A DNA stretch of 64,000 nucleotides from a virus: positions 1 to 64,000 of the IMG/VR virus record IMGVR_UViG_3300009163_000026; one strand, written 5' to 3'. Positions within the stretch are counted from its first letter, which is position 1; each line of letters begins with the position of its first letter. The position numbers were made by a program, and so were the translations under genes. Positions 2,772-55,797 of this stretch are shown one piece after another. The notes under the pieces were generated by a model. That model saw only the letters and a program-made list of their open reading frames with translations, was not told the DNA's origin and ran no database searches.

Positions 2772-3541
2772 AAAAGGTGTTTAGACGGAATAAGAAATAT
2801 ACTGAGGTCGAAAAGAAAGAAATTATTGAATATGCGCAAAAATACGGTATGTGGACCGTTAAGGAAAAATTTAATATTTGGCCTGAGAATGTACGTTACT
2901 GGTTATCATCAGAGAAAGTAAAGCTAGAGATATCTGAAAAAGGTAAAAAGAGGCATCAAGAAGCAAAGCTTAATTTAGAGCTAGAGCAGAAAAATAAAGA
3001 ATATAGAGAATATCGTAAGCTACAGGGCATTACGACTGCTAAGTGGAAAGAGTGGTATGATGATATGTCTCCCTTAGACCGTGAGAGTCATAACCAACGT
3101 ATTAAGCAACACAGACTAGATAATCTACAATACTACAAAGCAAAAGCAAAAGATCGATATTTAAAGGATAAGGAGAGCGGTATATCGCGAAAAAAATATA
3201 AAGAAGATCCGCTTCACAAGATGAGATGTAATATACGAGAGCACATTAGACAAGCGGTTAAATACGCTAAAATATCCAAATCACATCCTTCAATTACATA
3301 TCTTGGCTGTAGTATAGAGGAGTTTAAAGTACATATAGAGGTTCAATTTACAGAAGGAATGAATTGGGATAATCACGGTCGTGGTGATAGGTGCTGGCAT
3401 CTAGACCATATACAACCCTTAGCGTGCTTATCATCATTAGGTGATCTCGCTTTGCTACAAAAGATATGTCATTATTCAAATTATCAGCCACTGTGGGAGA
3501 TAGATAACCTATCAAAGAATAGTAAATATGCAGAGCCGTGA
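2768..3541 (+). CDS. HNH endonuclease with N-terminal helix-turn-helix
   Basis: 257 residues. The N-terminus (EIIEYAQKYGMWTVKEKF, then NVRYWL) resembles a transposase-type helix-turn-helix. The middle is charged helix. The C-terminal 75 residues carry an HNH nuclease core: WHLDHIQPL (catalytic His pair) followed by NYQPLWEIDN and K. This architecture is common in phage free-standing homing endonucleases inserted next to conserved structural genes. It overlaps the start of the methylase gene by 14 nt, so the two are translationally linked. Whether it cuts DNA that lacks the gene is not testable here. Confidence 0.8.
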   Translation: MEKVFRRNKKYTEVEKKEIIEYAQKYGMWTVKEKFNIWPENVRYWLSSEKVKLEISEKGKKRHQEAKLNLELEQKNKEYREYRKLQGITTAKWKEWYDDMSPLDRESHNQRIKQHRLDNLQYYKAKAKDRYLKDKESGISRKKYKEDPLHKMRCNIREHIRQAVKYAKISKSHPSITYLGCSIEEFKVHIEVQFTEGMNWDNHGRGDRCWHLDHIQPLACLSSLGDLALLQKICHYSNYQPLWEIDNLSKNSKYAEP

Positions 3542-4490
3542 GATACGAGAAGCAGTTTGCAGCTCTGCGTTGTTGTGGCCTGTAAAGACAGTCATTCAGT
3601 TATTTACCGGTATTGTCTCACCATCTACTGTATATAAGTGGGTAAATCAGCAGAATACACTTAACCACTCATATACCATGGAGGAGTGTTATAGTGAGTG
3701 GAAAAGGATCAAATCATATAGCGGTAGTTATGATGCAAGACCATCTCACAATAGAATTACCACGACATTTTTACCACACTTTTATAATATTGAGCAGGAG
3801 CTCTATAAAGATATAGTTATAAGAAAAAGACTGATAGAGAATCGAAAAAAATATTTACTTAAAGATAACTTTACATCGAGAGAGCTTTTACGTGGGTTTA
3901 AAATATCAGGAATACACACTGGTTATTCGCACTTCTCACCTTTATGGATTAAGCGATTTATTACCGATCTACAGGTAAAGACCGTTTACGACCCGTGTGG
4001 TGGTTGGGGGCACAGGCTAGTAGGGGCCGCGAGTTCAGGTTGTAATTATATTTATAATGATATATGGAAACTCTCATACAATGGTATTAAAAAAATTGTT
4101 AAGTTTTTAGATATACAAGTTACAACATATAATAACGATTGCACAAAGTTTATACCACAAGAGGATTATGATTGTGTTTTTACGTGTCCGCCATATTACA
4201 ATGTTGAAATATATGAAACCTCATTTAAGAGCTTAGAAATATATAATAACTTTATACACTTAATGCTAAAGAACGCTTGTAAACCATGTGTTAATTATAT
4301 TGGCGTTGTTATTAATTCCACCTATAAACATATTATACAAAATAATATACCTGATGATTTTGTTCTTTATGCAGATGAGACGCTAGGAAGTACTAGTGCT
4401 ATATCTCACTTCAACACCAAACAATCTACAAAAAGAGAAATGTTACTCATCTTTAAGAGGATTATTAGGAAAAAAGATACAGAAGATTAA
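3528..4490 (+). CDS. DNA methyltransferase-like protein (N4/N6-type)
   Basis: 320 residues. The N-terminal HTH-like segment (WPVKTVIQLFTGIVSPSTV) is of the same style as in the preceding HNH gene. SAM-binding motif I is PCGGWGHRLVGA (about 150-161) and the catalytic motif IV is FTCPPYYNVE (about 213-222), an amino-methylase SPPY variant. It probably methylates adenine or cytosine N4 in DNA. Paired with the HNH nuclease it could be a homing cassette or a minimal nuclease/protection pair; the sequence cannot separate these. It ends inside the right copy of the flanking repeat. Confidence 0.75.
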   Translation: MQSREIREAVCSSALLWPVKTVIQLFTGIVSPSTVYKWVNQQNTLNHSYTMEECYSEWKRIKSYSGSYDARPSHNRITTTFLPHFYNIEQELYKDIVIRKRLIENRKKYLLKDNFTSRELLRGFKISGIHTGYSHFSPLWIKRFITDLQVKTVYDPCGGWGHRLVGAASSGCNYIYNDIWKLSYNGIKKIVKFLDIQVTTYNNDCTKFIPQEDYDCVFTCPPYYNVEIYETSFKSLEIYNNFIHLMLKNACKPCVNYIGVVINSTYKHIIQNNIPDDFVLYADETLGSTSAISHFNTKQSTKREMLLIFKRIIRKKDTED

Positions 4491-5258: not shown

Positions 5259-6077
5259 TTAATATTTAAAAATATCATTATACCACTTAAAGTTAGTATC
5301 TATCCACTTACATATATCACTACCTAGAATATTTTTAGGCTTGTTATCTGTTAAAGTAAGCTTTGGTCGTATGTTATGATCACCAAAGATGCCATATAAA
5401 CTATCATCCTCCTTTGTTAGCTGATCAATATAGTTAAAGTTATGATGGTTATACACAGGCAACTCAAAGTAATTATATATTTTTTCAAGTTGTCTTTCAG
5501 GTGAATTACACAGATCCTCATATTTAATAAAGAGCATATGCTCATTGATACCTTGTTTAAATATCTCAGTTAACCGCTCTATAGCTAGTCCAAGTGGTTG
5601 AGTAGATAGATAGTGATCTACACGCTTTGCAGTAGTTGTATTAGCAAGCTGTGCGTGATTGACGATACCGGGATCATTCTCTGGAGCTTCACGGAATTTT
5701 TTCTCCATAGAAGTAATAATCTGCTTTAAATCTCTTACCATGCACACTACTTTAGGCTTCTCAGCTAGAGTGAATTCAAGTAAATTATAATGAATGCCCC
5801 AACCTCTTGACTTCTCTAAGACACACGGCTTATCGGTAATAGCGTCATAATAACCATATAGTCCTTGCTGACAGAATCCCTGAAAGCCCTTCCGCATTAG
5901 CTCAGCATCCTGCGCTTTAAATGTTGGATCATTACTATAGTTAGCTCTTGCACCATATATAAGTTCAAGAGTTCCTGAGGTAGGGGTAGAGTAAAAATTA
6001 GGATTTTGAGCTACTATATTTTGTAATAATGTAGACCCTGCGCGTGGTAGAGATGAGTTAAAGAATAATTGTTTCAT
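5259..6077 (-). CDS. Sulfotransferase family protein
   Basis: 272 residues. The N-terminal SSLPRAGSTLLQNIV (about 8-22) is the 5'-phosphosulfate-binding loop of PAPS-dependent sulfotransferases, and VCMVRDLKQIITSMEKKF (about 111-128) is the 3'-phosphate-binding segment. It would move sulfate from PAPS to a hydroxyl of a glycan or protein. It overlaps the glycosyltransferase gene by 4 nt and sits beside the large fibre gene, so modification of a virion or host-surface glycan is a reasonable inference. The substrate is unknown. Confidence 0.85.
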   Translation of the reverse strand: MKQLFFNSSLPRAGSTLLQNIVAQNPNFYSTPTSGTLELIYGARANYSNDPTFKAQDAELMRKGFQGFCQQGLYGYYDAITDKPCVLEKSRGWGIHYNLLEFTLAEKPKVVCMVRDLKQIITSMEKKFREAPENDPGIVNHAQLANTTTAKRVDHYLSTQPLGLAIERLTEIFKQGINEHMLFIKYEDLCNSPERQLEKIYNYFELPVYNHHNFNYIDQLTKEDDSLYGIFGDHNIRPKLTLTDNKPKNILGSDICKWIDTNFKWYNDIFKY

Positions 6078-6967
6078 AGTAATGTGCTTATTATAGTCTC
6101 TACATCAAAGATTTGCAATGGGTCAGTATAAGGACATTCGTGGATAGCACCAGTAAAGTTATAATCATAGAGATACGAGTCTACAGTACCAGCAGGAAAC
6201 TCTACATTTGGTGTAATATTGTTATGAATATTATAGCCGAATATTTTTGGCTGTGTAGCTACCCATACAACTGTTGATGGCAGACCCATTGCTGCAGCTG
6301 CATGCTGTAAGGATGAATCAATAAGTAAACGAGCTTGTGAATATAGCAGTGTACTGAATAATACTTTCTTTTGAAGATTTTGATCTATCCTTAAGCAGTT
6401 ATTAAGTACAGGATGATTATCATAACAAATATGAACTATATTATACTTAGCACTAAGTCTATCTACTATTTGCTGAGCAATAGCCGGATGAATATCTCTC
6501 ATCCATGAATACGGTGTTTCCTGATGACCTTTACCAGGTCCACCAAAAGGTTGAAATAATAGAACAGGTCTATCATCTGTTACTTTAAATACAGTTCTAC
6601 CTAGTTCACGTTCTCTAAAGTTAAAGGTTATTCTAGGCTGTTCATTACTATATTCAAGTCCAATCATATTACACCATGAATCAATGATATGCTTTTGTTT
6701 TGTAATATGAGAGGTTGTTTTATATGGCTCATGAGCAAATACCTCCACGTCTTTATCATAGATGTAATCTTCGTAGAAGTAGGGAGAAGTACCTGCTTTA
6801 TATACTCTGTATATAAACGGATTATTTAAGAAAACCTCAGCCCACGCACACACTACAATAATATCTGTATCAGGGTACTTTTTCTTGTAACACTCAACTA
6901 CAGCAGTTGCGGCAATATGCTTACCTATACCCCCTTCAATATGAAAAACAGCTTTTTTTCTACTCAT
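6074..6967 (-). CDS. Glycosyltransferase, GT9/heptosyltransferase-like
   Basis: 297 residues with a GT-B-like layout. The N-terminal GGIGKHIAATAVVECYKKKYPD resembles the GDxxxxTP-type start of ADP-heptose transferases. A linker around PFGGPGKGH opens the second domain, followed by DSSLQHAAAAMGLPSTVVW (about 227-245), the nucleotide-sugar-binding DSG(x)HxA signature of GT9. It is translationally coupled to the sulfotransferase, suggesting sequential glycosylation and sulfation of one product. Substrate and acceptor are unknown. Confidence 0.82.
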   Translation of the reverse strand: MSRKKAVFHIEGGIGKHIAATAVVECYKKKYPDTDIIVVCAWAEVFLNNPFIYRVYKAGTSPYFYEDYIYDKDVEVFAHEPYKTTSHITKQKHIIDSWCNMIGLEYSNEQPRITFNFRERELGRTVFKVTDDRPVLLFQPFGGPGKGHQETPYSWMRDIHPAIAQQIVDRLSAKYNIVHICYDNHPVLNNCLRIDQNLQKKVLFSTLLYSQARLLIDSSLQHAAAAMGLPSTVVWVATQPKIFGYNIHNNITPNVEFPAGTVDSYLYDYNFTGAIHECPYTDPLQIFDVETIISTLL

Positions 6968-11266: not shown

Positions 11267-11274
11267 TATTTATA
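11267..11274 (-). promoter_or_regulatory. Late promoter element TATAAATA (fibre gene)
   Basis: TATAAATA, then 5 nt, then the ATG at 11261; no Shine-Dalgarno sequence in between. Confidence 0.65.
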
Positions 11275-11309
11275 TATAAGGGTAAAATATACTACCCTTT
11301 ATTATAGCA

Positions 11310-11630
11310 TTACCTAATCGGATTAGAACTAAAGAATTGAGTCCTGTAGTATATCTTCCCTGCGGTTGCTGCTTTAGCAGAGACCTCACTAGCATTAGTA
11401 AGGCCGAGTATTGCTACTCTTTCACCAATATCTATTTGAAATGCAAACGGCTCAGCGCTAAACCCGTTATCATAAACACTAAGAAGGCCAGTGGTGGTGT
11501 TATGTATCGTAAGTTGCGAGCAAGGCTGTGTAGAGAGCTGAGTCATACTCGTATTAATAGTTAAATTAAATGATCTACATACATTACTATTATAAAAGGT
11601 AGAACCGTTATTACTTGTTGGTACAGGCAT
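11310..11630 (-). CDS. Small virion-associated protein candidate
   Basis: 106 residues, beta-rich, with TSNNGSTFYNSNVCRSFNLTIN at the N-terminus and a middle segment (TIHNTTTGLLSVYDNG, GERVAILGLTN) typical of small phage decoration or fibre-tip domains. It lies directly upstream of the fibre gene on the same strand. No family assigned. Confidence 0.5.
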   Translation of the reverse strand: MPVPTSNNGSTFYNSNVCRSFNLTINTSMTQLSTQPCSQLTIHNTTTGLLSVYDNGFSAEPFAFQIDIGERVAILGLTNASEVSAKAATAGKIYYRTQFFSSNPIR

Positions 11631-11645
11631 TTAATTATTTAGTCT

Positions 11646-11684
11646 AAAAATAAAAAACCCCGCTGTAATTAATTACAGCGGGGG
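11646..11684 (-). terminator. Terminator closing the DNA-modification operon
   Basis: A perfect palindrome CCCCGCTGTAATT/AATTACAGCGGGG (11658-11683) followed on the minus strand by TTTTTTATTTTT. It separates the operon from the late fibre genes. Confidence 0.92.
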
Positions 11685-11698
11685 TAAGTTAAAGTAAT

Positions 11699-12643
11699 TT
11701 ACTGCTTAGGTGTCTTAACATGTAGGATAGTTTCATCACTTAATGTATAATGAAGTCGACTTTTATTAGAAACTCGTTCCGGGTTAATATCCCAACCTCC
11801 ACGCCTTGCATATAAACACTTTACAGATAATTCATCGGGTTGTAATACATCCCATAAGCGTTTATATATGGCCTCGCAAATCTCCTCATGAAAATGACAC
11901 TCATCACGAAATGATACAATATATCTTAGTAAGGAGATAGGATCAACAGTCTTCTTACCTTTAATTGTAATATAAACATCTCCAGTATCAGGCTGAGCTG
12001 TAACCCTACATCTCGATCTTAATAAGGCACTATGGTATCTATCCTTATCACTAACAACAGAATCAATTACAGTAAGTAGCTCCGGTGACTCAACATATAC
12101 ATCAAACACTTCATTCTCTATAGGATACTCATCTTCTAACGTAATGAATGAAGTCTTAAGTTCACGTTGATGTGACCACTCATTAGTTGCAAGAGTAAAC
12201 TCTCGAAGCGCTTCATAGTTAGAATGCACCTTAACAGCTACTTTAGTTTCAAGCAATTCAGAAAGATCTTTAATAGCTTTTTCTGTAATATTAGCAAGTA
12301 CCTCAGCTGCCGTTCTACCTAGCTTAGTCATACTAAACGAGTTAAAATAAAGCTTTGTCGATTTAGACTCAACAATATACTTACTACTACAATCATAAAC
12401 AAACTTACAAATACCGACTACAGGTAAACCATTATCAGTAAGACCTGTAACTTCATATCCATTCCAGGTATCACTACCTTCAAACGGAAGATCTTCATCT
12501 TCAAGACCGAGATGAGTTCTATTTGACTGACGAGGTTCGCGTACTAGTAATTGAGGATCATATACAGATGCATACTCTGATGATTTACCTAAATGCTTAC
12601 TAATGTTAGAATTATCTAATACTATTTGTTGTTGTTTTGCCAT
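11699..12643 (-). CDS. queF: 7-cyano-7-deazaguanine reductase (QueF)
   Basis: 314 residues, the length of the two-module (E. coli-type) QueF rather than the short Bacillus form. It reduces preQ0 to preQ1 with NADPH. The visible signature is VESKSTKLYFNSFSMT in the N-terminal half. The C-terminal half has SRCRVTAQPDTGD, whose Cys should form the thioimide with the nitrile, then FHEEICEAI and YARRGGWDINPERV. It is the last gene of a four-gene operon with a DpdA-like transglycosylase, which points to DNA modification rather than tRNA queuosine. FolE, QueD, QueE and QueC are not in this window, so preQ0 must come from elsewhere in the phage or from the host. Confidence 0.93.
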   Translation of the reverse strand: MAKQQQIVLDNSNISKHLGKSSEYASVYDPQLLVREPRQSNRTHLGLEDEDLPFEGSDTWNGYEVTGLTDNGLPVVGICKFVYDCSSKYIVESKSTKLYFNSFSMTKLGRTAAEVLANITEKAIKDLSELLETKVAVKVHSNYEALREFTLATNEWSHQRELKTSFITLEDEYPIENEVFDVYVESPELLTVIDSVVSDKDRYHSALLRSRCRVTAQPDTGDVYITIKGKKTVDPISLLRYIVSFRDECHFHEEICEAIYKRLWDVLQPDELSVKCLYARRGGWDINPERVSNKSRLHYTLSDETILHVKTPKQ

Positions 12644-12649
12644 AAATTA

Positions 12650-13243
12650 TTATATTTTAGTCTTATAAGGATGCAAGTTTCTATTAAACACTGTGTTTAA
12701 TCCCATTGTCTCGAACTTACTCATCATAAACGTCATTCGATCTCTAACTGGACCTGCAACTCTTAAAACCTTTGATTGCGGAATAGTAGACATATACTTT
12801 TCGAACAGTTCGATTATTTGATTCCTAAATTCTACATTAATACTTCTCTCACCATCATTATCAACCGGTACGTCTTCTGGTTGCGTATACACAATGAGAT
12901 CATACTTATCTATAGTATTATCAAATACCCAACGCGCATGAGTATAAGCCCCCATAGAAACACTTCCATACTCACACAGCCAATGAGTATAAACTAAACC
13001 ATCTAAAGAGCATCTATCAAGAACAGTAGGTATATCGCGCTTAGTATAAGCATTCCGCAAATGCTCACCTGCAATCATCATTTGCGTTACATCATTACCA
13101 CCCTCATTAATCGGTAAGTCATACTCCCTCTTTACAAGTCTTGTAATCTCAGGAATATAGTTCCACTCAGGAATTATATCTTGACATACCTTTAGTAGAG
13201 TACTCTTACCCGTACTTTGCGCACCACTAAAGCTAATTAACAT
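12650..13243 (-). CDS. P-loop kinase of the NadR/AAA_28 type in the 7-deazaguanine operon
   Basis: 197 residues. Walker A is SGAQSTGKSTLL (about 6-17). TVLDRCSLDGLVYTHWL (about 73-89) carries a DR-type Walker B/phosphate-acceptor region and DLIVYTQPEDVPVDNDG a lid-like region, as in the NadR kinase domain and related small-molecule kinases. It overlaps the formyltransferase gene by 7 nt and precedes queF by 6 nt, so it is co-expressed with the modification enzymes. Its substrate is unknown; phosphorylation of a modified nucleoside or base intermediate is possible but inferred only from context. Confidence 0.75.
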   Translation of the reverse strand: MLISFSGAQSTGKSTLLKVCQDIIPEWNYIPEITRLVKREYDLPINEGGNDVTQMMIAGEHLRNAYTKRDIPTVLDRCSLDGLVYTHWLCEYGSVSMGAYTHARWVFDNTIDKYDLIVYTQPEDVPVDNDGERSINVEFRNQIIELFEKYMSTIPQSKVLRVAGPVRDRMTFMMSKFETMGLNTVFNRNLHPYKTKI

Positions 13244-13800
13244 ACAGTATTATAGTACTCTTTAGTAAAAAAATCAATCCATGATGTTAACGATGTTCGA
13301 CGCGCAACATTATATGTCTCCTCTAATGAGGTACAGTTAACATAGGATAGCTGTGACGCACATATTATGTCACCGCAATCTACTTCTGCAGTAACCTTAT
13401 GGATTACACTACCCACATACATAAAGTCAGAGATATTCGCCCACACTTTATCAACCGGATCCTTACCTTTAAGTTGCGGGTAGTAATTAATCAACCCAGG
13501 ATGTCCGTTGTATATTGTAAACTCCTCGCATATCTCAGGCGGTATAATATTAAGCCATCCATGCAAGGTAATAATATCGTAGTCACCTAAAAAATTTCTG
13601 AAGTAATCAAGCTTCGCAGCAGGGGTAAGCTTTCTATAAGCCCGCCACATTACCTTCTTGCAATTTTGCTCAATGCGTTCATCTACCTTATTATCAACTT
13701 TAACATTATCAGAAATAACAAGGTCAGGGTATCTACCTATAGCTTCAGACAAATTACATATCTCTGAACCCGTCTGTGAAAAGAGAGCTAACCAGGTCAT
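13237..13800 (-). CDS. dpdN: Formyltransferase, DpdN-like (predicted dPreQ1 formyltransferase)
   Basis: 187 residues. The core TLHGWLNIIPPEICEEF then IYNGHPGLINYYPQLKGKDP (about 95-131) carries the Asn-His of the formyltransferase active site and the LPxYxGxxP-like loop. EVDCGDII further on supplies the Asp. It is shorter than methionyl-tRNA or GAR formyltransferases and lacks their C-terminal domains. In phages with 7-(formylaminomethyl)-7-deazaguanine a DpdN formyltransferase has been predicted, and the position between DpdA and QueF fits that. Formylation of preQ1 in DNA is inferred. Confidence 0.75.
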   Translation of the reverse strand: MTWLALFSQTGSEICNLSEAIGRYPDLVISDNVKVDNKVDERIEQNCKKVMWRAYRKLTPAAKLDYFRNFLGDYDIITLHGWLNIIPPEICEEFTIYNGHPGLINYYPQLKGKDPVDKVWANISDFMYVGSVIHKVTAEVDCGDIICASQLSYVNCTSLEETYNVARRTSLTSWIDFFTKEYYNTVC

Positions 13801-14606
13801 CCGTTACAGATCTTACTAAATTCTTCAATATTATAAAAAATATCGTCTTCTTGTTCTCCCGTTAGTTCGCAATTAATTAGATCTGCAAGCATTACTTTCG
13901 GCTTATTATACAGGCCAATACCTTTTAGGTACCGTTGATTTAGTATACCAGCAACAACAGGGTTTGAGGTATCAACGCTACGAATATTTGTAATATTCTT
14001 ATAATACTGATACTTAAATTCACGAGCTAAAGAGCATCCAAGTAAGTGAGTTGGTTTTTCATTATTCCAGATACCATCCGCTATCAACATACTAATAAAC
14101 TTACGACGACCATCGGCCATCCTCTCAAGCGTAGCTAGAGCAGGGTCTATACTCGTCGACTTACCTATGACTTGGTAATATGAATAATCAAACGAAATAG
14201 CAATATAATCAGAATACTCTTCCATATATCTATAGCATTTTACCAACTCATCATACGTCTTACCCTGCACTACCCCCACCTTAAGCCCAGGTAAATGCGG
14301 GTAGTTCATTACAAACTTATGATAAGATGCAATAGTATCGTTGCACTCTTCCAGAACATCAGGTATGATATAGTAAGTTGGCTTTAGCTCCTCAATATAT
14401 TTAGCAAACTTTGAACCATCAAATGCAACACCGAGCTCGAAGATTGAGTTATCAAGCATTACTTCACGTCCTAGGAATAGTGTGGATTTAAAAAAGGTAT
14501 AGTATTTAGGATGAGACTCGAAGAGGTGAACGAGTGCGTACTGAAAGTCAGTCTTTCGACCGACTTCTCCTAATATAGAAATAGGCGCTTCATGTGCAAT
14601 TAACAT
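13797..14606 (-). CDS. dpdA: DNA-guanine transglycosylase, DpdA family
   Basis: 269 residues, first gene of the operon. The (beta/alpha)8 tRNA-guanine-transglycosylase-like pattern is visible: LDNSIFELG (about 51-59), YIIPDVLEECNDT (about 79-91), LKVGVVQGKTYDEL (about 109-122) and ISFDYSYY. The TGT zinc site (CxC...H) is absent, as in phage DpdA proteins. It would exchange guanine in DNA for a 7-deazaguanine base made with QueF. The next gene overlaps by 4 nt. A GGAAC-N5-TATAAT element lies immediately upstream. Confidence 0.85.
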   Translation of the reverse strand: MLIAHEAPISILGEVGRKTDFQYALVHLFESHPKYYTFFKSTLFLGREVMLDNSIFELGVAFDGSKFAKYIEELKPTYYIIPDVLEECNDTIASYHKFVMNYPHLPGLKVGVVQGKTYDELVKCYRYMEEYSDYIAISFDYSYYQVIGKSTSIDPALATLERMADGRRKFISMLIADGIWNNEKPTHLLGCSLAREFKYQYYKNITNIRSVDTSNPVVAGILNQRYLKGIGLYNKPKVMLADLINCELTGEQEDDIFYNIEEFSKICNG

Positions 14607-14612
14607 AATATT

Positions 14613-14628
14613 ATTATAATATAGTTCC
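14613..14628 (-). promoter_or_regulatory. Early-type element before dpdA
   Basis: GGAAC-TATAT-TATAAT; 6 nt to the dpdA ATG. It faces away from the TATAAATA element at 14683. Confidence 0.65.
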
Positions 14629-14682
14629 TTATCAAACTCAAGTAATAAAATAAGTATAAATGTGGTTAAATGTGGAGCTGTA

Positions 14683-14690
14683 TATAAATA
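14683..14690 (+). promoter_or_regulatory. Late promoter element TATAAATA (baseplate operon)
   Basis: TATAAATA with 6 nt to the ATG at 14697; divergent from the early-type dpdA element in a 90-bp gap. Confidence 0.7.
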
Positions 14691-21658: not shown

Positions 21659-22096
21659 TTAGGATTCTTCCCATGGAAATGTTAACCACGTTTCTTCAGG
21701 TACAGAAAACCCATAACAGTTAACCATATGAGATGATTTGTCTTTAACAAATAGTGAAGCATAGTCAAAGGTGTGAATAGTATTACTATACATACCTTTA
21801 AATATATTAAACGTATTACCTGTATCGCATATATCATCTACTACTAAAAATTTCGAAGGAGCTGTTGGTAGTGTCACTGGCTGATAAATGGTCCATTTGC
21901 CTGTGTGTATAGTATTATTATATGTATTGATTCCAAAAACCAATACCTTTTTGTTAAGTTTATATGCTAGCATAGTAGCAGGTATAAGACCTCCACGACC
22001 AATACCGATAATATAATCGTAGTTTGAACCAACCCGCTGCGCCAGTAAATCTATGATAAATGACATATATTCATAACTTACAGCTTTTTTATTCAT
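21659..22096 (-). CDS. Phosphoribosyltransferase
   Basis: 145 residues. The PRPP-binding loop is KFLVVDDICDTGNTFN (about 84-99), with two acidic residues followed by DTGNT. An upstream IIGIGRGGLIPATMLAYKL segment (about 30-48) is characteristic of type I purine phosphoribosyltransferases (xanthine/hypoxanthine type). It probably salvages a purine base into a nucleotide during infection. Given the 7-deazaguanine operon 8 kb away, an unusual base as substrate cannot be excluded. Confidence 0.85.
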   Translation of the reverse strand: MNKKAVSYEYMSFIIDLLAQRVGSNYDYIIGIGRGGLIPATMLAYKLNKKVLVFGINTYNNTIHTGKWTIYQPVTLPTAPSKFLVVDDICDTGNTFNIFKGMYSNTIHTFDYASLFVKDKSSHMVNCYGFSVPEETWLTFPWEES

Positions 22097-24915: not shown

Positions 24916-26025
24916 ATGTCGGATAAGCGTGATTACTATGTAGTGCTAGAGGTAGATCGTAATGTCGATGCAGAGGGTATTAAAAAAGCATATCGTCGAC
25001 TTGCTATTAAGCATCACCCAGATAAAAATCAAGGTGATAGTGCTGCAGAAGAGAAATTCAAAGAGTTAGGTGAAGCATATGAGATTCTAAGTGATCAAGA
25101 TAAGCGAGCTGCTTACGATAGACACGGTCACGCTGCCTTCGTAGGTGGAGGTAGACCGCAAAGTCACTCACATCAAGATATTTTCGCTCAGATGTTCGGT
25201 GGTGGATTTGGTAGCTTCTTTGGCGGTCACGCTGGGCCTAGACAGCAGAAGGGTGAAGATATACGTTGTGATATATCTCTTAATCTAGAAGAAGTAATAC
25301 ACTCAACTGCAAAAGAAATTACCATTCCACGGTTCGTTGGCTGTGAGGCGTGTAGTTCAAACGGTACACAGTCGACAAATGGCCTACAGACTTGTACGAC
25401 GTGCAGTGGTAACGGTGTTGTTATTCAACAGTCTGGTATGTTTGTCCAGCAAACCACATGCCCTGAATGTCGTGGTGCGGGTGAGATAATTACAGACCCA
25501 TGTAACGTTTGCAGCGGTGAAGGCCGTGTACAATGTAACACTCAGATACAGGTGAATATACCTGCAGGGGTTGATGCAGATACGCGTATGTGTATGCAAG
25601 GCAATGGTAACAGTGGTAGAAGAGGTAGTCCAAGTGGCGACCTCTATATACACACTAATATTGTGCAACACAGTGTCTTTAGGAGAGAAGGAACTGAGCT
25701 GTTCTGCGATGTACTGTTGGATATTAAAACCGCTACCCTAGGCGGTACACTAACCGTGCCTACGTTTGAAGGAGGAGTAGTAATAAAAATACCAACTGGT
25801 ACGCAAAGCGGTTCTGTGTTTAAGTTAAGTCATAGAGGTTCACCAATGATTAATTCAAGCGATAGAGGTAGTCTGAATATTACAGTACAGGTCGAAATAC
25901 CAGTAGAGCTTGATAGCTATCAACAAGAGTTATTAAATGCATTTACTAACTCACTAGCACCAGTAAACACCCCTTTACATAAAGGCTTTACTACAGTAGC
26001 GGAAAGATTCCTGAACAAGATTTAA
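24916..26025 (+). CDS. dnaJ: DnaJ (Hsp40) co-chaperone, type I
   Basis: 369 residues with the complete DnaJ plan: J domain (1-70) with HHPDKNQ carrying HPD, a Gly/Phe-rich linker (QMFGGGFGSFFGGHAG), four zinc-finger repeats of the CxxCxGxG type (CEACSSNG, CTTCSGNG, CPECRGAG, CNVCSGEG) and the C-terminal substrate-binding domain. It should stimulate a DnaK ATPase. A dnaK gene is present at 48378-50246, so the phage brings a matched Hsp70/Hsp40 pair, presumably for virion or phage-enzyme folding. Confidence 0.95.
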   Translation: MSDKRDYYVVLEVDRNVDAEGIKKAYRRLAIKHHPDKNQGDSAAEEKFKELGEAYEILSDQDKRAAYDRHGHAAFVGGGRPQSHSHQDIFAQMFGGGFGSFFGGHAGPRQQKGEDIRCDISLNLEEVIHSTAKEITIPRFVGCEACSSNGTQSTNGLQTCTTCSGNGVVIQQSGMFVQQTTCPECRGAGEIITDPCNVCSGEGRVQCNTQIQVNIPAGVDADTRMCMQGNGNSGRRGSPSGDLYIHTNIVQHSVFRREGTELFCDVLLDIKTATLGGTLTVPTFEGGVVIKIPTGTQSGSVFKLSHRGSPMINSSDRGSLNITVQVEIPVELDSYQQELLNAFTNSLAPVNTPLHKGFTTVAERFLNKI

Positions 26026-26038
26026 TTTTAAGATTATA

Positions 26039-26377
26039 TTATAATATCTCGTTATCTTTATAATATACATGAATTGCGGGGAAATGTTCAAGTATAAAAT
26101 TATTTAGTCTCTCTGTACCAGGACGGAAATCGCGACTTTCTCCTTCATCACCCTCTTCGTCGAGAGTATCTGACCTGTGCCACAAATCAAAGTTAAAATT
26201 AGGATGGTCTTCCGCTACCATTATCTCCCTTTCAAATTTGAACCTCCTAGGATTAGGGGTAGGTCCCATATAGGTAACGTCTACATAAATATTTCCTAAT
26301 TCCGGTAAGTCACCATCCTCACCATACATTTCGTGCGAAACAACATCAGCCTCAATTTCAAATATTTTATATCTCAT
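26039..26377 (-). CDS. MRY-family paralog (array member 1)
   Basis: 112 residues. It belongs to a family repeated through this window: start MRYK plus a beta strand, a variable beta-rich middle, a core P/A-E-x-H-P-x-F-N motif, then a C-terminal helix of 25-40 residues. Here the core is AEDHPNFNFDLW (about 55-66). The family is not one I can name, and no signal peptide, membrane helix or catalytic triad is obvious. It is the last gene of the minus-strand run and overlaps the next paralog's end by 11 nt. Confidence 0.7.
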   Translation of the reverse strand: MRYKIFEIEADVVSHEMYGEDGDLPELGNIYVDVTYMGPTPNPRRFKFEREIMVAEDHPNFNFDLWHRSDTLDEEGDEGESRDFRPGTERLNNFILEHFPAIHVYYKDNEIL

Positions 26378-26825
26378 TGTCGTATGTATTTAAATTTACA
26401 AAGTCAGGAAGACATTTGTGTAGTATAGTACGTGTCATATCACGTGCAGCTTCTTTATCATCAGTAATAAAATAATATAGTTCGGCATCCTTCCTACGGG
26501 CGGCGTTTAGAACATCAAAATTAAAGCTGGGGTGTGATTCAGGTAGTATGTAATAGTACCGTGTTGCGTTACCGTATTGTGCATCTGTATTGCTACCACC
26601 ATCAACCATCCTATATAGGTATTGAGCAACCCTAATAAATTCATATTTTGATAGATCATCATCCTCATCGGTTCCTGCTGGACTCCAGTGGCTATTCAAA
26701 GCATTTTCTGGTACTCGGTCATACTTGAGTATACTACCATCGACTATCTTAACGTCTTCTATATGTAGTGTCTCAACTTCATCGAGATCAACAGCGCCTT
26801 GTATTTGAAATTTCTTGTATCTCAT
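26367..26825 (-). CDS. MRY-family paralog (member 2, long)
   Basis: 152 residues; start MRYKKFQIQ, core LPESHPSFNFDVL. Longer than most because of an acidic insertion (GTDEDDDLSKYEF). Confidence 0.7.
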   Translation of the reverse strand: MRYKKFQIQGAVDLDEVETLHIEDVKIVDGSILKYDRVPENALNSHWSPAGTDEDDDLSKYEFIRVAQYLYRMVDGGSNTDAQYGNATRYYYILPESHPSFNFDVLNAARRKDAELYYFITDDKEAARDMTRTILHKCLPDFVNLNTYDNEI

Positions 26826-26826
26826 T

Positions 26827-27210
26827 TTAAAAGTAGTTACGTAACAAGTTATTAAATTGCTTCCAAGCGGGGTGGTCTTTAGATATTATAGGCTTTACAG
26901 GTGTGTTATATGTACCACCTTCTCCAAGTACAACTCTATCTACTACATATATATTAAAGAATGGATGTGTCTCTGGTACAAAGAAAGCATTCCGAGAAAA
27001 CGTCCGTTGATATTCTAACAACTCGTAAATACCATCACGCCATAAGCGGTAGCGATTGTCTCTATATATCGGAGTATACGGAGGTGCACCAGGCTCCATT
27101 TTAAATTCGTCATCGGTTAGATAGAAAAAGCCATCAGGTATATCCGGATAGTTCATACGCACAGATCGCTGTTGATCATTATAGCCGAAAAAGTATAGCC
27201 TATATCTCAT
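26827..27210 (-). CDS. MRY-family paralog (member 3)
   Basis: 127 residues; start MRYRLYFFGYN, core VPETHPFFNIYVV. Preceded by the GTCTC repeat region, so it may be the first gene of a short transcript. Confidence 0.7.
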   Translation of the reverse strand: MRYRLYFFGYNDQQRSVRMNYPDIPDGFFYLTDDEFKMEPGAPPYTPIYRDNRYRLWRDGIYELLEYQRTFSRNAFFVPETHPFFNIYVVDRVVLGEGGTYNTPVKPIISKDHPAWKQFNNLLRNYF

Positions 27211-27243
27211 TTTTATAACCAGTTAAGTATATTTATAGTAAAA

Positions 27244-27309
27244 GCGTCCGAAGGACGCCCGGCACACACATCTTTGTCTCGTTGGTCTCGTTTGTCTCAC
27301 TGGTCTCGT
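27244..27309 (-). repeat. Hairpin plus four 9-bp GTCTC repeats
   Basis: Hairpin GCGTCC-GAA-GGACGC (27244-27258), then four 9-nt units of the form TKGTCTCRY at 27274-27309 between members 3 and 4. Non-coding. On the minus strand the repeats read as CGAGACCAA-type units and precede the hairpin, which could act as a weak terminator. Confidence 0.7.
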
Positions 27310-27321
27310 GTGGTCTTTTTA

Positions 27322-27888
27322 CTATCGCCCGAATTCAAAAGGCGTCCCGTTAGGTCCAGCGGTAGCCATTACTCTCCCAAAATCATCAGTGTCTTCATTC
27401 GCTACAAGCGAGTTGTATTGTTCGTGGGTGATAATTAAATCACGTAGTTGCCTCTTAGTATCGAGATTGTGAAACTCAGTTGAGGATATAAAATAATCAT
27501 CAACACAATTATACATTAAGTCTATATTAAACAAAGGATCTGTTTCATCTACTACCTTTATAAAGAACTGTGTCATGGTGAAATGAAGATCTTGTTTAAC
27601 GGATCGATCACCATATTCTTTCGATGTAGGTTGATCCTTACGTGTAACATAGTTATAGAACTGAGTTTTACCTAACTGAACATAGTATAGGTGTCGGAGA
27701 TTATAAGAGTAATTAGGAGAGATTATAATGTCGTCTCTACCATAAATGAACCTACCAGGCGGCTTCTTAAGTATACCGGCAAGAGCGCCTATAAAATCTA
27801 TTTCGGAGCCGTCGTGGATCTCGTCACCGTTAGTATCATAGGCAGCATCGTAAACCCTATAGGAAAAATCAATTGCTTTATATCTCAT
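27322..27888 (-). CDS. MRY-family paralog (member 4, longest)
   Basis: 188 residues from the ATG at 27888 (MRYKAIDFSYRVYD); a start five codons earlier is rejected by comparison with the paralogs. Core VDETDPLFNIDLM, where Thr-Asp replaces the usual Thr-His. The C-terminus has an extra 40 residues after the helix. Confidence 0.7.
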   Translation of the reverse strand: MRYKAIDFSYRVYDAAYDTNGDEIHDGSEIDFIGALAGILKKPPGRFIYGRDDIIISPNYSYNLRHLYYVQLGKTQFYNYVTRKDQPTSKEYGDRSVKQDLHFTMTQFFIKVVDETDPLFNIDLMYNCVDDYFISSTEFHNLDTKRQLRDLIITHEQYNSLVANEDTDDFGRVMATAGPNGTPFEFGR

Positions 27889-27896
27889 ATTATTTA

Positions 27897-28193
27897 TTAC
27901 CAATTTCTACACGACCAGTAACCGGCCGATGTCTTATCTTTCTTCTGAGAACACTTGTGTCTAGCTCTGAATGACTTGCGGCGCTTTGGATTAGACTTCT
28001 TAATACGTAGATTAGGGTCTCCGTAATGCACTCGCTTATAACCGGTCTTTGTCTTCACACACCGCATATATTTCTTATCGGATCTACTAGAGGACTGCTG
28101 ACCGGTTACCTTAGTGCATTGGGTGGCCTCTATGATAATAGAGGTATCAGCTAATGCTTCCAGTAACTCATAATACTCGATAAACGATATCAT
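27897..28193 (-). CDS. Small basic Cys protein with RARHxC...YWSCRNW tail
   Basis: 98 residues. The N-terminus MISFIEYYELLEALADTS is similar to that of the nucleotidyltransferase at 28881. The C-terminal half is Lys/Arg-rich (NPKRRKSFRARHKC) and ends KDKTSAGYWSCRNW, a tail I have seen described on several phage proteins, probably a small zinc- or nucleic-acid-binding module. TATAAATA lies 5 nt upstream of the ATG. Confidence 0.65.
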   Translation of the reverse strand: MISFIEYYELLEALADTSIIIEATQCTKVTGQQSSSRSDKKYMRCVKTKTGYKRVHYGDPNLRIKKSNPKRRKSFRARHKCSQKKDKTSAGYWSCRNW

Positions 28194-30614: not shown

Positions 30615-31022
30615 TTAAGACTTTATGGATTCGAGATACTTTATTGCTAAATTTCTTATTATATCTTTAGTGAGCAGCGTTTCGTCGATGTCCCGTAATT
30701 CATCCAACCCAACTAGAATAAGATCTACATTAAAGAAAGGATGAGTCTCTGGTATACAAAAGATAGCTGTTTCCCGTGCTCGGCCCGCTAAGCCCCTAGT
30801 TCCAGCAATCTCCTCTGCTGACGGAGGGTCAGCATGCATCCAGATACCATCTTCAACTTCGTGTAGATCTTCAAGCATCATACTACCTGAGGACCCCCAT
30901 TCAGTCCGAGAATTATTTACGAAGTTATTACCATTCCTAAACAGCATTGGCTCGTACCCTAATCTAAATCTAACGGTTCCGGTGCGCAAAAATGTCTCTA
31001 TAAGGTATCCTTTGTATCTCAT
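30615..31022 (-). CDS. MRY-family paralog (member 9)
   Basis: 135 residues from the ATG at 31022 (MRYKGYLIETFL). An upstream in-frame start at 31079 is rejected because promoter P2 and the TATAAATA element lie inside that extension. Core IPETHPFFNVDLIL. Confidence 0.7.
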   Translation of the reverse strand: MRYKGYLIETFLRTGTVRFRLGYEPMLFRNGNNFVNNSRTEWGSSGSMMLEDLHEVEDGIWMHADPPSAEEIAGTRGLAGRARETAIFCIPETHPFFNVDLILVGLDELRDIDETLLTKDIIRNLAIKYLESIKS

Positions 31023-31035
31023 CTTTGTGTGTGTA

Positions 31036-31043
31036 TATTTATA
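31036..31043 (-). promoter_or_regulatory. Late promoter element TATAAATA
   Basis: 13 nt upstream of the ATG at 31022, downstream of P2. Confidence 0.45.
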
Positions 31044-31051
31044 CAAAGCCC

Positions 31052-31079
31052 TATATAGAGACCACGAGAATTTTGACAA
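31052..31079 (-). promoter_or_regulatory. Sigma70-like promoter P2
   Basis: TTGTCA, 16-bp spacer (starting AAATTCTCG as in P1), TATATA. Same A/T tract upstream. P1 and P2 look like duplicated copies. Confidence 0.6.
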
Positions 31080-35746: not shown

Positions 35747-36127
35747 TTAAAATAATTCTGGTTGAGTGGTTACGCTCTTTAGATAGTTACCGAACATTCT
35801 AAAAAGAACTTTTAATATATCGCCATGAACATCGTTAATATCATTTTTGTCGTTAATTTGTGAAATTCCATACATAATAGAACCACAACCAAAGAGTGGG
35901 TTATCTTCCCGGGTAAGAACTACAAAATCATCTGAGCTACGATTACCCACATACACACTCAAGCTATCATCTGTTGTTGGTATTAGTTGGATACTGTTAA
36001 CCTGCCCTGTAATAAATGTGAATGGTAGGTCTTTTACAGCTGCTTCAAGTGAGGTATATACCCTAGATAATGGGTCGATATAACCACCTCCTGAATATTT
36101 AAAGTAACGTGTTATTGTGTATCTCAT
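35747..36127 (-). CDS. MRY-family paralog (member 11)
   Basis: 126 residues; start MRYTITRYFKY, diverged core TREDNPLFGCGSIM (Gly for Asn). Confidence 0.65.
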   Translation of the reverse strand: MRYTITRYFKYSGGGYIDPLSRVYTSLEAAVKDLPFTFITGQVNSIQLIPTTDDSLSVYVGNRSSDDFVVLTREDNPLFGCGSIMYGISQINDKNDINDVHGDILKVLFRMFGNYLKSVTTQPELF

Positions 36128-36131
36128 ATCG

Positions 36132-36500
36132 TTATTTTTTTTGTTTTGCGCGCCACTCTTTCATCACTCCTAGGTAAAGTTTATGTAGTATATCAATTAT
36201 TATATCATTAAAACTTATTGGAAGGTCATTTTCTACCTGAAGTATCACATAGCTGTTAAACAACGCGTGTGTCTCTGGGAGAAACATATGACACTCGGGC
36301 GCAACTGCAAAGGACAGTACAATGCCTTCCTTACTCACAAAGTTTACAGGAAATCGAATAATCTCTGGAATATAATCGCTATTTGTCCTCTTCTTACTAT
36401 AATAATATAGATTCATACTATCATCTTTTACTATAGATAATCCAGGTGATATATATAGATGATCCTTATTATTAGGGTATCCTATGTATGAGTATCTCAT
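36132..36500 (-). CDS. MRY-family paralog (member 12)
   Basis: 122 residues; start MRYSYIGYPNN, core LPETHALFNSYVIL. Confidence 0.7.
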   Translation of the reverse strand: MRYSYIGYPNNKDHLYISPGLSIVKDDSMNLYYYSKKRTNSDYIPEIIRFPVNFVSKEGIVLSFAVAPECHMFLPETHALFNSYVILQVENDLPISFNDIIIDILHKLYLGVMKEWRAKQKK

Positions 36501-39662: not shown

Positions 39663-39678
39663 ATTATATCAGAGTTCC
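39663..39678 (-). promoter_or_regulatory. Early-type element
   Basis: GGAAC-TCTGA-TATAAT; 6 nt to the ATG at 39656. Confidence 0.65.
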
Positions 39679-40037
39679 TTTCGCTTTTTACGTCGCTTAT
39701 AATTAGAAAGAAGCTTTACAAGCCAAGGTTCTACAACTTTACTAGCAGGTAAGACAGCATCATACGTATCTAATACTGTTACTAATTCTGAATAACGCAA
39801 AAGCGTGCAATTAAAAAACGGATGATTCTCAAAAAAAGCAATTATGTAGCTATGCTGATCTTCCTCACCGATAAAATTCGGACACCACGCAAAGTCTTTT
39901 TCCTTTATCCAACTGTAATAATCATCCTCTAGGTCCTCCAGACCTTTAATAGAACTACTACCCAGTCGTGTTGGATCTTGATAACGGTAGAAGCTGTCAG
40001 CTTCAGTCATATCAATTGCTATAAAGTTAACACGCAT
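39669..40037 (-). CDS. MRY-family-like paralog (member 18, diverged)
   Basis: 122 residues; start MRVNFIAIDMTE instead of MRY, core FFENHPFFNCTLLRY, basic C-terminus (KRRKKRKEL). Its stop region overlaps the next early-type element. Confidence 0.6.
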   Translation of the reverse strand: MRVNFIAIDMTEADSFYRYQDPTRLGSSSIKGLEDLEDDYYSWIKEKDFAWCPNFIGEEDQHSYIIAFFENHPFFNCTLLRYSELVTVLDTYDAVLPASKVVEPWLVKLLSNYKRRKKRKEL

Positions 40038-48377: not shown

Positions 48378-50246
48378 TTATGCGGCAGTTTCCTCAACCA
48401 CTTCAGCATCGAACACACCATCTTTATCAGCTTGTGATTCATCTACTGGCTTAGGCATTGCTTGCGCTAATTGCATAAGCAATGCTTCAAGTTCACCTTG
48501 AGCAGCCTTAAGCGCATCAATATCTTCACCAGCTAAAGCTAGGTTACAAGCAGCAATCTTTTCTGTTACTGTCTCTTTAAGCTCACTCGGGATATTCTCT
48601 CCCAGCTCTCTTACCTGACCTTCAACATTAAACACAAGTGAACTACACTGATTGCGTTGATCGATCATATCTACGCGCAGCTTATCAGCATCAGCGTGCA
48701 GCTCTGCGTCAGCTTTTGCCTGCTCAATCTCTTCTTTTGATAGTCCAGACGATCCTTCAATTGAAATTTTCTGCTCCTTGCCGGACTGCTTATCTTTAGC
48801 AGACACATGCAGGATACCGTTTGCATCAATATCGAAGGTTACTTCAATTTGAGGTTCACCTCTACGCGCAGGTGCAATACCGTCTAGTTTAAATTGACCT
48901 AGTAATTTATTATCACTAAACATCTTACGCTCACCTTGACAGATTTGAATATCTACAGCGGGCTGATTATCAGCTGCTGTAGAGAACGTTTGACTTTTCT
49001 TAGCAGGTATAGTTGTATTACGTTCGATAATGTTAGTAGCGATGCCGCCCATTGTTTCAATTGAGAGTGAGAGAGGAGTAACATCAAGTAGTAGTACATC
49101 TGTTACATCTCCTGCTAACACACCGCCTTGAATAGCAGCACCTAACGCAACAACCTCATCAGGATTAACACCTTGGTTTGGTGCTTTACCTGCTAATGCA
49201 GCAGCGGTTTCAACAACCTTAGGCATACGCGTCATACCCCCTACCAAGACAAGTTCTACAGCACCTTTAATACCACCATCCTTTAAACATTCTTTAACAG
49301 GCTTTTTAGTGCGAGTAAACAATGAGTCAGTTAGCTGTTCGAGCTGTGATCTCGTCATTGTGAGGGAGATATGCTTAGGACCTGTAGCATCAGCCGTAAC
49401 AAACGGAATTGAAATATCATAAGTCTGTGCTGATGATAGAGCAATCTTAGCCTTCTCAGACTCCTCTTTGATTCGTTGCAACGCGTCGGGCTGATTAGAT
49501 AGATCAATGCCTTGATCCTTCTTAAACTCTCCTACAATCCATTCAATTAAAGCATTATCCCAATCATCGCCACCTAGTGAGGTATCACCGTTTGTAGATA
49601 GAACTTCAAATACTCCATCACCGATTTCGAGTACTGAGATGTCGAAGGTACCGCCACCTAAGTCATAGACAGCGATCTTACCGTCTGCCTTCTTATCTAA
49701 ACCGTAAGCCAAAGCAGCTGCAGTTGGTTCGTTAATGATACGTAACACTTCAAGACCGGCAATTTCTCCCGCTGCTTTAGTAGCGCTGCGTTGTGAATCA
49801 TTAAAGTAAGCTGGTACAGTGATGACTGCTTTAGTAATTTTCTCTCCGATCTTTGCTTCTGCATCTGCTTTTAGTTTACTTAGAAGCATTGCAGCAATTT
49901 CTTGTGGTGAGTATACTTTCTTTTGACCTTCAACTTCAACTTCAATATGTGCATCACCGTTAGCTGCTTCTACGATAGTATAAGGTACGCGCTTATCAGC
50001 GTCCTTAAGCTCGGAGAATTTGCGACCAATAAGTCGCTTTGCAGAGCTAATTGTATTTTTTGGATTGGTTACTGCTTGACGCTTAGCGGCTTGGCCTACA
50101 AGGCGTTCACCGTTCTTAGCGAACGCTACTACTGATGGAGTAGTGCGTGCGCCTTCTGCGTTTTCAAGAATGTTCGCATCTTTACCATCCATGATGGCCA
50201 TGCACGAGTTAGTAGTTCCTAGGTCGATTCCTAATATTTTTGACAT
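48378..50246 (-). CDS. dnaK: DnaK (Hsp70) chaperone
   Basis: 622 residues, full length (E. coli 638). The N-terminal [16 protein letters not shown], then [32 protein letters not shown] and the substrate domain ([32 protein letters not shown]) are all intact; the C-terminal tail is short and acidic ([12 protein letters not shown]). It is a foldase with ATP-driven substrate cycling, to be driven by the phage DnaJ at 24916. No GrpE is seen in this window, so nucleotide exchange may use the host protein. Codon use is less AT-rich than neighbours, consistent with high expression or more recent acquisition. Confidence 0.96.
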
Positions 50247-51650: not shown

Positions 51651-52388
51651 TTAGAACGCACGCTTGAAGGCGATGCCGCCAAAGAATTCGTTCTCTGTAT
51701 TGCCGTTAGCGCCTTGAAAATCGCTCAGTGAGATTGAGTATGCCACAAACGGTACAGCAACAATGCCGCAGAATGTAGTATCGATTTCAGTAGACAGGGT
51801 TGTCTCTACATAAGTAGCCTCTCCTTGTTCTACGATATAACCAAGAGCTGTATTCAGATCAAGGGTAAAGGGCAGACCGAAGCTGTTTTTATAATCGACG
51901 CTGAATTCACCGTAGCTATTGTTGTCTCCTTCAACAGCGATATACTGTGTAAGGGATAGATCAACAGGACCAACAGCTCTCGAAACGCCAAGGCCAACCT
52001 CCTGAGCTGCACCGCCAGTGTTGGTGACGAAGCCAGAGCTAAACCAGGTATAGCTTGCCGAGAAGCGAAAGTCGGCGATGTCTTTAGAAAAGACAGCAGA
52101 CAGATCACCTTGATTATCCTCAATGGATTGCGAATTACTATAATCAGCAATCAAACTAAGGTTAATATCAGCAGGTAGAACGATTGAACCAGTAACAACA
52201 GCAGACGCTTCATTCTGACCAATGTCTTGACCACGCCACATGTTAGTTGAACTATAACCAACTTCAACGCTTGCATCAATTGTAGGTGATGGGCTTGGAG
52301 TTAGTTGAGGTGAACCAGCCGTAACGACTTGTACATTAGCGAGTGTAGCTAGAGCTACGATTGTAAACAGTGTGTTTAGTTTCTTCAT
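51651..52388 (-). CDS. TorF-like outer-membrane beta-barrel protein
   Basis: 245 residues with a signal peptide (MKKLNTLFTIVALATLANVQ, cleavage near VVTAG). The mature part has regularly spaced amphipathic strands. ASVEVGYSSTNMWRGQDIGQNEAS is the signature N-terminal segment of the TorF/Gcw_chp putative porin family, and the chain ends in Phe (GGIAFKRAF), as outer-membrane barrels do. Unusual in a phage. It could alter the host surface, for example to exclude superinfecting phage. Confidence 0.82.
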   Translation of the reverse strand: MKKLNTLFTIVALATLANVQVVTAGSPQLTPSPSPTIDASVEVGYSSTNMWRGQDIGQNEASAVVTGSIVLPADINLSLIADYSNSQSIEDNQGDLSAVFSKDIADFRFSASYTWFSSGFVTNTGGAAQEVGLGVSRAVGPVDLSLTQYIAVEGDNNSYGEFSVDYKNSFGLPFTLDLNTALGYIVEQGEATYVETTLSTEIDTTFCGIVAVPFVAYSISLSDFQGANGNTENEFFGGIAFKRAF

Positions 52389-55357: not shown

Positions 55358-55435
55358 TTACCAGAAGATCTCTCGTTCATATTGGTTATAAGCTATTTTG
55401 GTTCTTTCACTACGACTGCAAACTTTGTATCTCAT
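55358..55435 (-). pseudogene. Truncated MRY-family copy
   Basis: Only 25 codons: MRYKVCSRSERTKIAYNQYE and a stop at 55358. The start codon context and MRYK match the family, but the core motif is lost. It overlaps the end of the intact member 19. Confidence 0.55.
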
Positions 55436-55797
55436 AGCTTAACTCCTACCTTTGTTTGTATAAAATTGCGCATATACTTGTTAGCAAAATCACGAATGAC
55501 TTCCCGTTTATCTTTTGGTACATTATAATACAACATATCATAACACATTGATGCATTAAACAGAAAATGGGTCTCAGGCATCATAAAATATATTACAGGC
55601 TTTTTAAATCTTAGCTCCCTATCTGCGAAATAGATACCGTCAACATTGTTTTTAAAAACTACACCCATGCTATAGCCATCCTGCGATCGAAACTCACCTG
55701 TATCTTCATCTCTATACCACAACTGACCATCACGCTGCAGCAATGTCCCTTCATTAGTTCGCTTACCTCCAGAACATTCACATACAATATATCTCAT
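55432..55797 (-). CDS. MRY-family paralog (member 19, outlier)
   Basis: 121 residues; start MRYIVCECSGG, core MPETHFLFNASMCY. It sits 15 kb from the main array beside a truncated copy. TATAAATA lies 8 nt upstream. Confidence 0.7.
   Translation of the reverse strand: MRYIVCECSGGKRTNEGTLLQRDGQLWYRDEDTGEFRSQDGYSMGVVFKNNVDGIYFADRELRFKKPVIYFMMPETHFLFNASMCYDMLYYNVPKDKREVIRDFANKYMRNFIQTKVGVKL

Follow-up and report, generated by a model that had tools for sequence, protein, structure and literature searches.

Work by Cui et al. in Nucleic Acids Res. in 2023 reportedly described formylated preQ1 in the DNA of phages that carry DpdA and predicted a formyltransferase, DpdN. The locus studied here resembles this fdPreQ1/DpdN pathway in that a DpdA phage carries a predicted formyltransferase that is a candidate DpdN. 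A small number of phages were already known to have the pathway. Streptococcus phage Dp-1 is similar in that a QueF-type enzyme and DpdA give dPreQ1, and in that phage only ∼1.7% of G is modified (PMC6884629). In Campylobacter phages CP220 and CPt10, dADG takes the place of all dG (PMC8306585, citing Crippen et al. 2019). Flavobacterium phage vB_FspM_immuto_2-6A (immuto; NC_055915, gp206-gp202) has the same four genes as our locus in the same order, and its DpdA and QueF are already annotated. What is new is the breadth of this four-gene signature, the kinship of its DpdA to a DpdA of full replacement, and the constant presence of a kinase and a phosphoribosyltransferase (PRT).

Source phage

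The window, by which we mean the whole stretch of DNA analyzed, covers positions 1 to 64,000 of an IMG/VR phage record of 86,855 bp, and a nucleotide-level search with it returned no nearby phage. Because the capsid gene at 1152-2615 encodes a distant gp23 relative (∼33% identity to marine T4-like phages) and the T4-type late motif TATAAATA is twofold enriched in the window (24 sites vs 11.3 ± 3.6 in shuffled sequences), we read the phage as a T4-superfamily myovirus. Sites of the late motif include 11267-11274 (minus strand) and 14683-14690 (plus strand), and the motif lies upstream of a tail fibre gene and of the gene at 14697. Of 43 listed starts, only 1 has a correctly spaced Shine-Dalgarno-like match by a simple pattern.

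The phage also encodes a full-length DnaK (Hsp70, 813 bits) at 48378-50246 (minus strand) and a DnaJ with all three domains at 24916-26025 (plus strand). A sulfotransferase gene (PF13469) is located at 5259-6077 (minus strand) just downstream of a tail-fibre-like gene, and the product of the adjoining stretch 6074-6967 looks by eye like a glycosyltransferase and has no Pfam match. The product of 51651-52388 (minus strand) has a signal-peptide-like start and the look of an outer-membrane protein by eye; it has no Pfam match and would be odd cargo for a phage. At least eight small proteins share an MRY start and a PETHPLFN-like motif at an overall identity of only ∼20%, and possibly constitute a multi-copy paralogous family; neither of the two that were scanned has a Pfam match.

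26367-27903, 30615-31079, 35747-36500, 39669-40037 and 55432-55797, minus strand: MRY/PETHPLFN-like small proteins (shared start and motif)

Operon layout

The operon sits on the minus strand between tail genes. Its features, and those of one probable distant partner gene, are as follows.

13797..14606, minus strand: DpdA, compact DNA-guanine transglycosylase, 269 aa (AlphaFold2 fold, homology, invariant residues)
13237..13800, minus strand: formyltransferase (GART/FMT fold), DpdN-like, 187 aa (PF00551, PDB profile matches, invariant N-H-D)
12650..13243, minus strand: P-loop nucleotide/nucleoside kinase, AAA_28, 197 aa (PF13521, AlphaFold2/Foldseek, 80 of 87 loci)
11699..12643, minus strand: QueF, two-domain NADPH-dependent preQ0 reductase, 314 aa (PF14819 and PF14489, invariant motifs)
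11658..11683, minus strand: intrinsic terminator at the operon end (11-pair stem, T-rich tail)
14613..14641, minus strand: sigma-70-like promoter match, doubtful (TTGAGT-17-TATAAT, 10/12)
21659..22096, minus strand: xanthine-guanine-type PRT, probable distant partner gene (PF00156)

Read 5' to 3', the order is DpdA, formyltransferase, kinase and QueF. The initial annotation described four overlapping genes. This is true of the first three, where DpdA and the formyltransferase share 4 bases and the formyltransferase and the kinase share 7, but QueF starts 6 bases after the kinase. The four minus-strand reading frames themselves are present where they had been placed and constitute a real operon, as identical gene order in dozens of non-redundant loci argues against a chance arrangement. 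The strong terminator that had been proposed was also recovered at 11683-11658 (minus strand), with 11 pairs (7 of them GC) and a 4-base loop followed by TTTTTTATTT. An early-type promoter had likewise been proposed, and this we could not uphold. The -10 box of the sigma-70-like match ends 6 bases ahead of the DpdA ATG, but the region contains 16 matches of 10/12 quality vs 13.4 ± 4.8 in shuffles, a count that does not rise above the shuffles, and a sigma-70 promoter upstream of DpdA was consequently rejected. A T4-type late motif was not found upstream of DpdA.

Distribution of the four-gene set

IMG/VR was scanned twice independently, with DpdA and with the formyltransferase, and each scan returned more than 140 relatives. 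Loci were counted after removal of near-identical copies. Among the 87 DpdA loci that extend 3.5 kb or more downstream, the formyltransferase is present in 82, QueF in 82 and the kinase in 80, and the order DpdA-formyltransferase-kinase-QueF is found in immuto and in dozens of non-redundant environmental phage loci. The four-gene set is a stable and widespread module. Between immuto and the window, tblastn identities are 46% for DpdA, 39% for the formyltransferase, 34% for the kinase and 44% for QueF. Immuto differs in having QueD, QueE, PRT and FolE directly upstream, genes that are not adjacent to the operon in the window, and in having a small ORF between DpdA and the formyltransferase.

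DpdA

The DpdA protein exceeded the cut-off of no Pfam family, its PHROGs matches were to unnamed families only, and its sequence profile matched nothing in the PDB even at E 1, which made a fold search necessary. The five best Foldseek matches of its AlphaFold2 model (pLDDT 95.7) to the PDB were all TGT/DpdA proteins (E 1.7e-06 to 1.6e-05) and include 7ui4, the solved DNA preQ0 insertase DpdA. The TGT-like residues D52, D83, Q114 and D212 are invariant in 39 sequences. Identity is 46% to the annotated DpdA of immuto and 42% over the full length to that of CP220, and CP220-type Campylobacter phages contain the nearest named relatives outside immuto. The modeled fold, together with homology, synteny and active-site residues, supports the earlier call of this protein as the DNA-guanine transglycosylase DpdA.

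As this fold is common to tRNA-guanine transglycosylases and at least four tRNA genes are present in the phage, the enzyme might instead act on host or phage tRNA in a queuosine-type modification. We regard this as very improbable. The protein has no TGT Pfam match, the four tRNAs found have the anticodons TCT, CAT, TCC and TAA, none of which is of the GUN type, and the queuosine pathway has no formylated preQ1 among its intermediates. Furthermore, DpdA relatives occur in phages with fully modified DNA (PMC8306585).

The extent of replacement has to be reconsidered, as the initial annotation had only some guanines replaced. The 42% identity to CP220 places the window protein by sequence with the compact DpdA of the fully replaced Campylobacter phages, the complete-replacement subfamily DpdA3. 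Because the closest characterized DpdA relatives are in phages with 100% of dG replaced (PMC8306585), replacement in the window phage may by analogy be complete rather than partial, and "some guanines" should be widened to possibly all.

QueF and preQ0 supply

Both QueF domains scored above cut-off (PF14819, 2e-30; PF14489, 1.3e-19). The NADPH motif ESKS (residues 92-95), the catalytic Cys and Asp (C212 and D219) and FHE (251-253) are invariant in 37 sequences. From these domains and intact reductase motifs the identification as QueF, already made in the initial annotation, is secure. A 2019 survey noted that QueF and an amidinotransferase-like form are hard to tell apart from sequence (PMC6884629); the window protein could in principle be of that form, although the phage proteins that have been tested gave dPreQ1.

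QueC, QueD, QueE and FolE were not found in the window's 86.9-kb record, which is probably a fragment. PreQ0 could be supplied either by genes in the missing part of the genome or by the host. QueC and QueD are present in 20 of 20 related records.

Formyltransferase

The formyltransferase matched PF00551 with 28.7 bits (cut-off 26.1), and a profile of its family ranked GAR transformylases first in the PDB (best 1.1e-15). N98, H100 and D141, which make up the Asn-His-Asp catalytic set, are invariant in 46 sequences. Given that GART is closest in the PDB and that the immuto homologue is annotated as phosphoribosylglycinamide formyltransferase, the gene could be an auxiliary PurN-type gene of purine synthesis that is merely located in the operon, in which case the DNA would carry plain dPreQ1. 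We believe this to be unlikely for three reasons. First, DpdA is present in all 69 formyltransferase loci that extend 1.5 kb or more upstream, a strict linkage by which we assign the gene to the module. Second, among named phages a close relative is found only in immuto (four immuto records). Third, the phosphate-binding loop that reads "GSN" in GART and PurN reads "GSE" in the window protein, with Glu13 invariant in the 46 sequences, and an invariant Glu in place of the phosphate-loop Asn argues against glycinamide ribonucleotide or another phosphate-bearing substrate. It is our speculation that Glu13 reads the guanine edge of preQ1.

These features support a formyltransferase dedicated to the 7-deazaguanine pathway. 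The DpdN-like formyltransferase of the initial annotation is thereby borne out as a PF00551-family protein with the N-H-D set that is tied to DpdA, and we regard it as a candidate DpdN that probably formylates preQ1 or dPreQ1.

A P-loop kinase as a constant partner of DpdA

The third gene of the operon figures in neither the title nor the interpretation of the initial annotation. Its product matched PF13521 (AAA_28) with 44.3 bits against a cut-off of 27, the sole family above cut-off. Foldseek matched its AlphaFold2 model (pLDDT 91.1) about equally to dCK, dAK, NadR and TMPK, the NadR match being to nicotinamide riboside kinase, and for this reason the substrate cannot be read from the fold. 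A plain thymidylate kinase was considered and rejected, as the Thymidylate_kin Pfam domain is lacking and the fold is common to dCK, NadR and TMPK.

Of the 87 loci, 80 have the kinase next to DpdA, which puts it on a par with the rest of the operon in conservation. It also accompanies DpdA without QueF or the formyltransferase. In CP220, where neither of these genes lies beside DpdA and the product is dADG at 100% of dG (PMC8306585), the DpdA is 42% identical and the adjoining AAA_28 kinase 28% identical to those of the window. In CC_R7 the order is QueC-DpdA-kinase-DNA polymerase. Cellulophaga phage phiST has an AAA_18 P-loop protein directly upstream of its DpdA homologue, and in Bacillus phage BSTP10 the gene of a P-loop protein overlaps that of DpdA; the latter protein was rejected as a kinase orthologue since it has only a weak P-loop match.

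T4 polymerase incorporates hydroxymethyl-dCTP directly, and a pre-replicative route modeled on this example deserves consideration. Here a compact DpdA would carry out the base exchange at the level of free dGMP or dGTP, the kinase would be dedicated to the modified deoxynucleotide, and the polymerase would incorporate it. Such a route would fit a kinase that stays with DpdA in CP220 and CC_R7, the unrelated or remote P-loop proteins beside DpdA in phiST and BSTP10, the DNA polymerase that often adjoins DpdA, the complete replacement known in CP220 (PMC8306585), and the small size of the window DpdA (269 aa vs 413 aa in 7ui4). In a Campylobacter study, however, infected cells reportedly contained no dADG phosphate, and the authors reportedly argued for insertion into existing DNA. 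To our knowledge all characterized DpdA enzymes act on DNA, and about ten loci without the kinase retain DpdA, the formyltransferase and QueF. We therefore consider the pre-replicative route improbable and prefer base exchange in existing DNA.

Phosphoribosyltransferase and possible guanine recycling

The PRT matched PF00156 with 36.1 bits (cut-off 26.3), and the best PDB matches of its family profile were purine/xanthine-guanine PRTs (6e-26 to 1e-19). Of 21 records, 19 have it, the window included. As it is absent from the other two, as well as from a DpdA-carrying Bacillus phage, recycling by a PRT would not be universal. QueE and FolE flank a PRT homologue in about 30 loci, and FolE carries a PRT-related domain as an N-terminal fusion in queuoviruses (for example VpKK5, MMDA13 and a Stenotrophomonas phage).

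3498-4400, 3489-4376 and 3471-4364 of three queuovirus-type phage loci: PRT-FolE fusions (PRT motifs)

The N-terminal ∼115 residues of the queuovirus FolE are PRT-like, with PRGG, DDxxDSG and WVVFPWE motifs, in proteins annotated as GTP cyclohydrolase I only. A further nucleotide enzyme tied to the cluster is a nucleotide pyrophosphohydrolase of MazG/PRA-PH type, flanked by FolE and DpdA in both immuto and phiST.

11273-11797 (immuto) and 5676-6263 (phiST): MazG/PRA-PH-type pyrophosphohydrolase

The kinase, the PRT or both are found in phage lineages of Flavobacterium, Cellulophaga, Campylobacter and Bacillus and in queuoviruses. The 2019 survey makes no mention of phosphoribosyltransferases or salvage (PMC6884629), and a full-text literature search for a kinase or PRT together with DpdA returned no relevant paper. 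An apparent co-loss of kinase and PRT (28/8 vs 0/6, Fisher p 0.0006) was set aside, as most of the loci that lack the kinase group together in the DpdA tree and are thus not independent.

One guanine is expelled per base inserted, and in many relatives a PRT that would make GMP stands beside the GTP-consuming FolE. This suggests, as a tentative proposal, that the kinase and PRT recycle the guanine expelled by DpdA. Put more broadly, they may form a guanine-handling module for replacement by DpdA, in which the kinase is tied to DpdA and the PRT is tied or fused to FolE and which would return expelled guanine to the nucleotide pool, allowing the guanines of an entire genome to be exchanged, or else the kinase may charge modified nucleotides prior to replication; we rate this broader statement as conceivable and short of an even chance.

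Proposed pathway

Gene content, gene order, folds, conserved residues and co-occurrence are what we observed, and from these we propose a scheme in which the chemistry, the order of steps, the extent of replacement, the protection and the recycling are inferred, with recycling the least certain of them. PreQ0 would be made by FolE, QueD, QueE and QueC from genes located elsewhere in the phage or in the host, and QueF would reduce it to preQ1. DpdA would cut guanine from the phage DNA and insert the 7-deazaguanine base. Before or after insertion, the formyltransferase would use 10-formyl-tetrahydrofolate to formylate the aminomethyl arm, giving 2'-deoxy-7-(formylamino)methyl-7-deazaguanosine, a bulky base that would conceal the DNA from guanine-reading host nucleases. 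The PRT and kinase would convert expelled guanine to GMP and then GDP, feeding dGTP and the GTP used by FolE.

Judging from sequence, we think it likely that the operon makes and inserts preQ1 or formyl-preQ1 in phage DNA, a reading that the gene order shared with immuto and dozens of other loci supports well by homology. The initial interpretation is of the right kind, and its details are probably correct as well. Its transglycosylase, its preQ1-giving nitrile reductase and its dedicated formyltransferase are upheld by fold, homology, synteny and active-site residues, while its restriction to some guanines and its omission of the kinase need to be changed.

The four-gene order provides a robust genomic signature of probable preQ1-formylating phages, which are far commoner among environmental phages than among isolates. 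If the kinship to CP220 holds for the chemistry, these phages may have no ordinary guanine at all, which bears on their resistance to restriction, cloning and sequencing. The constant kinase and PRT raise the question of the fate of the guanine expelled by DpdA, up to one for each G per genome copy. Either version of guanine handling, if true, would bring a new functional layer to the hypermodification of phage DNA.
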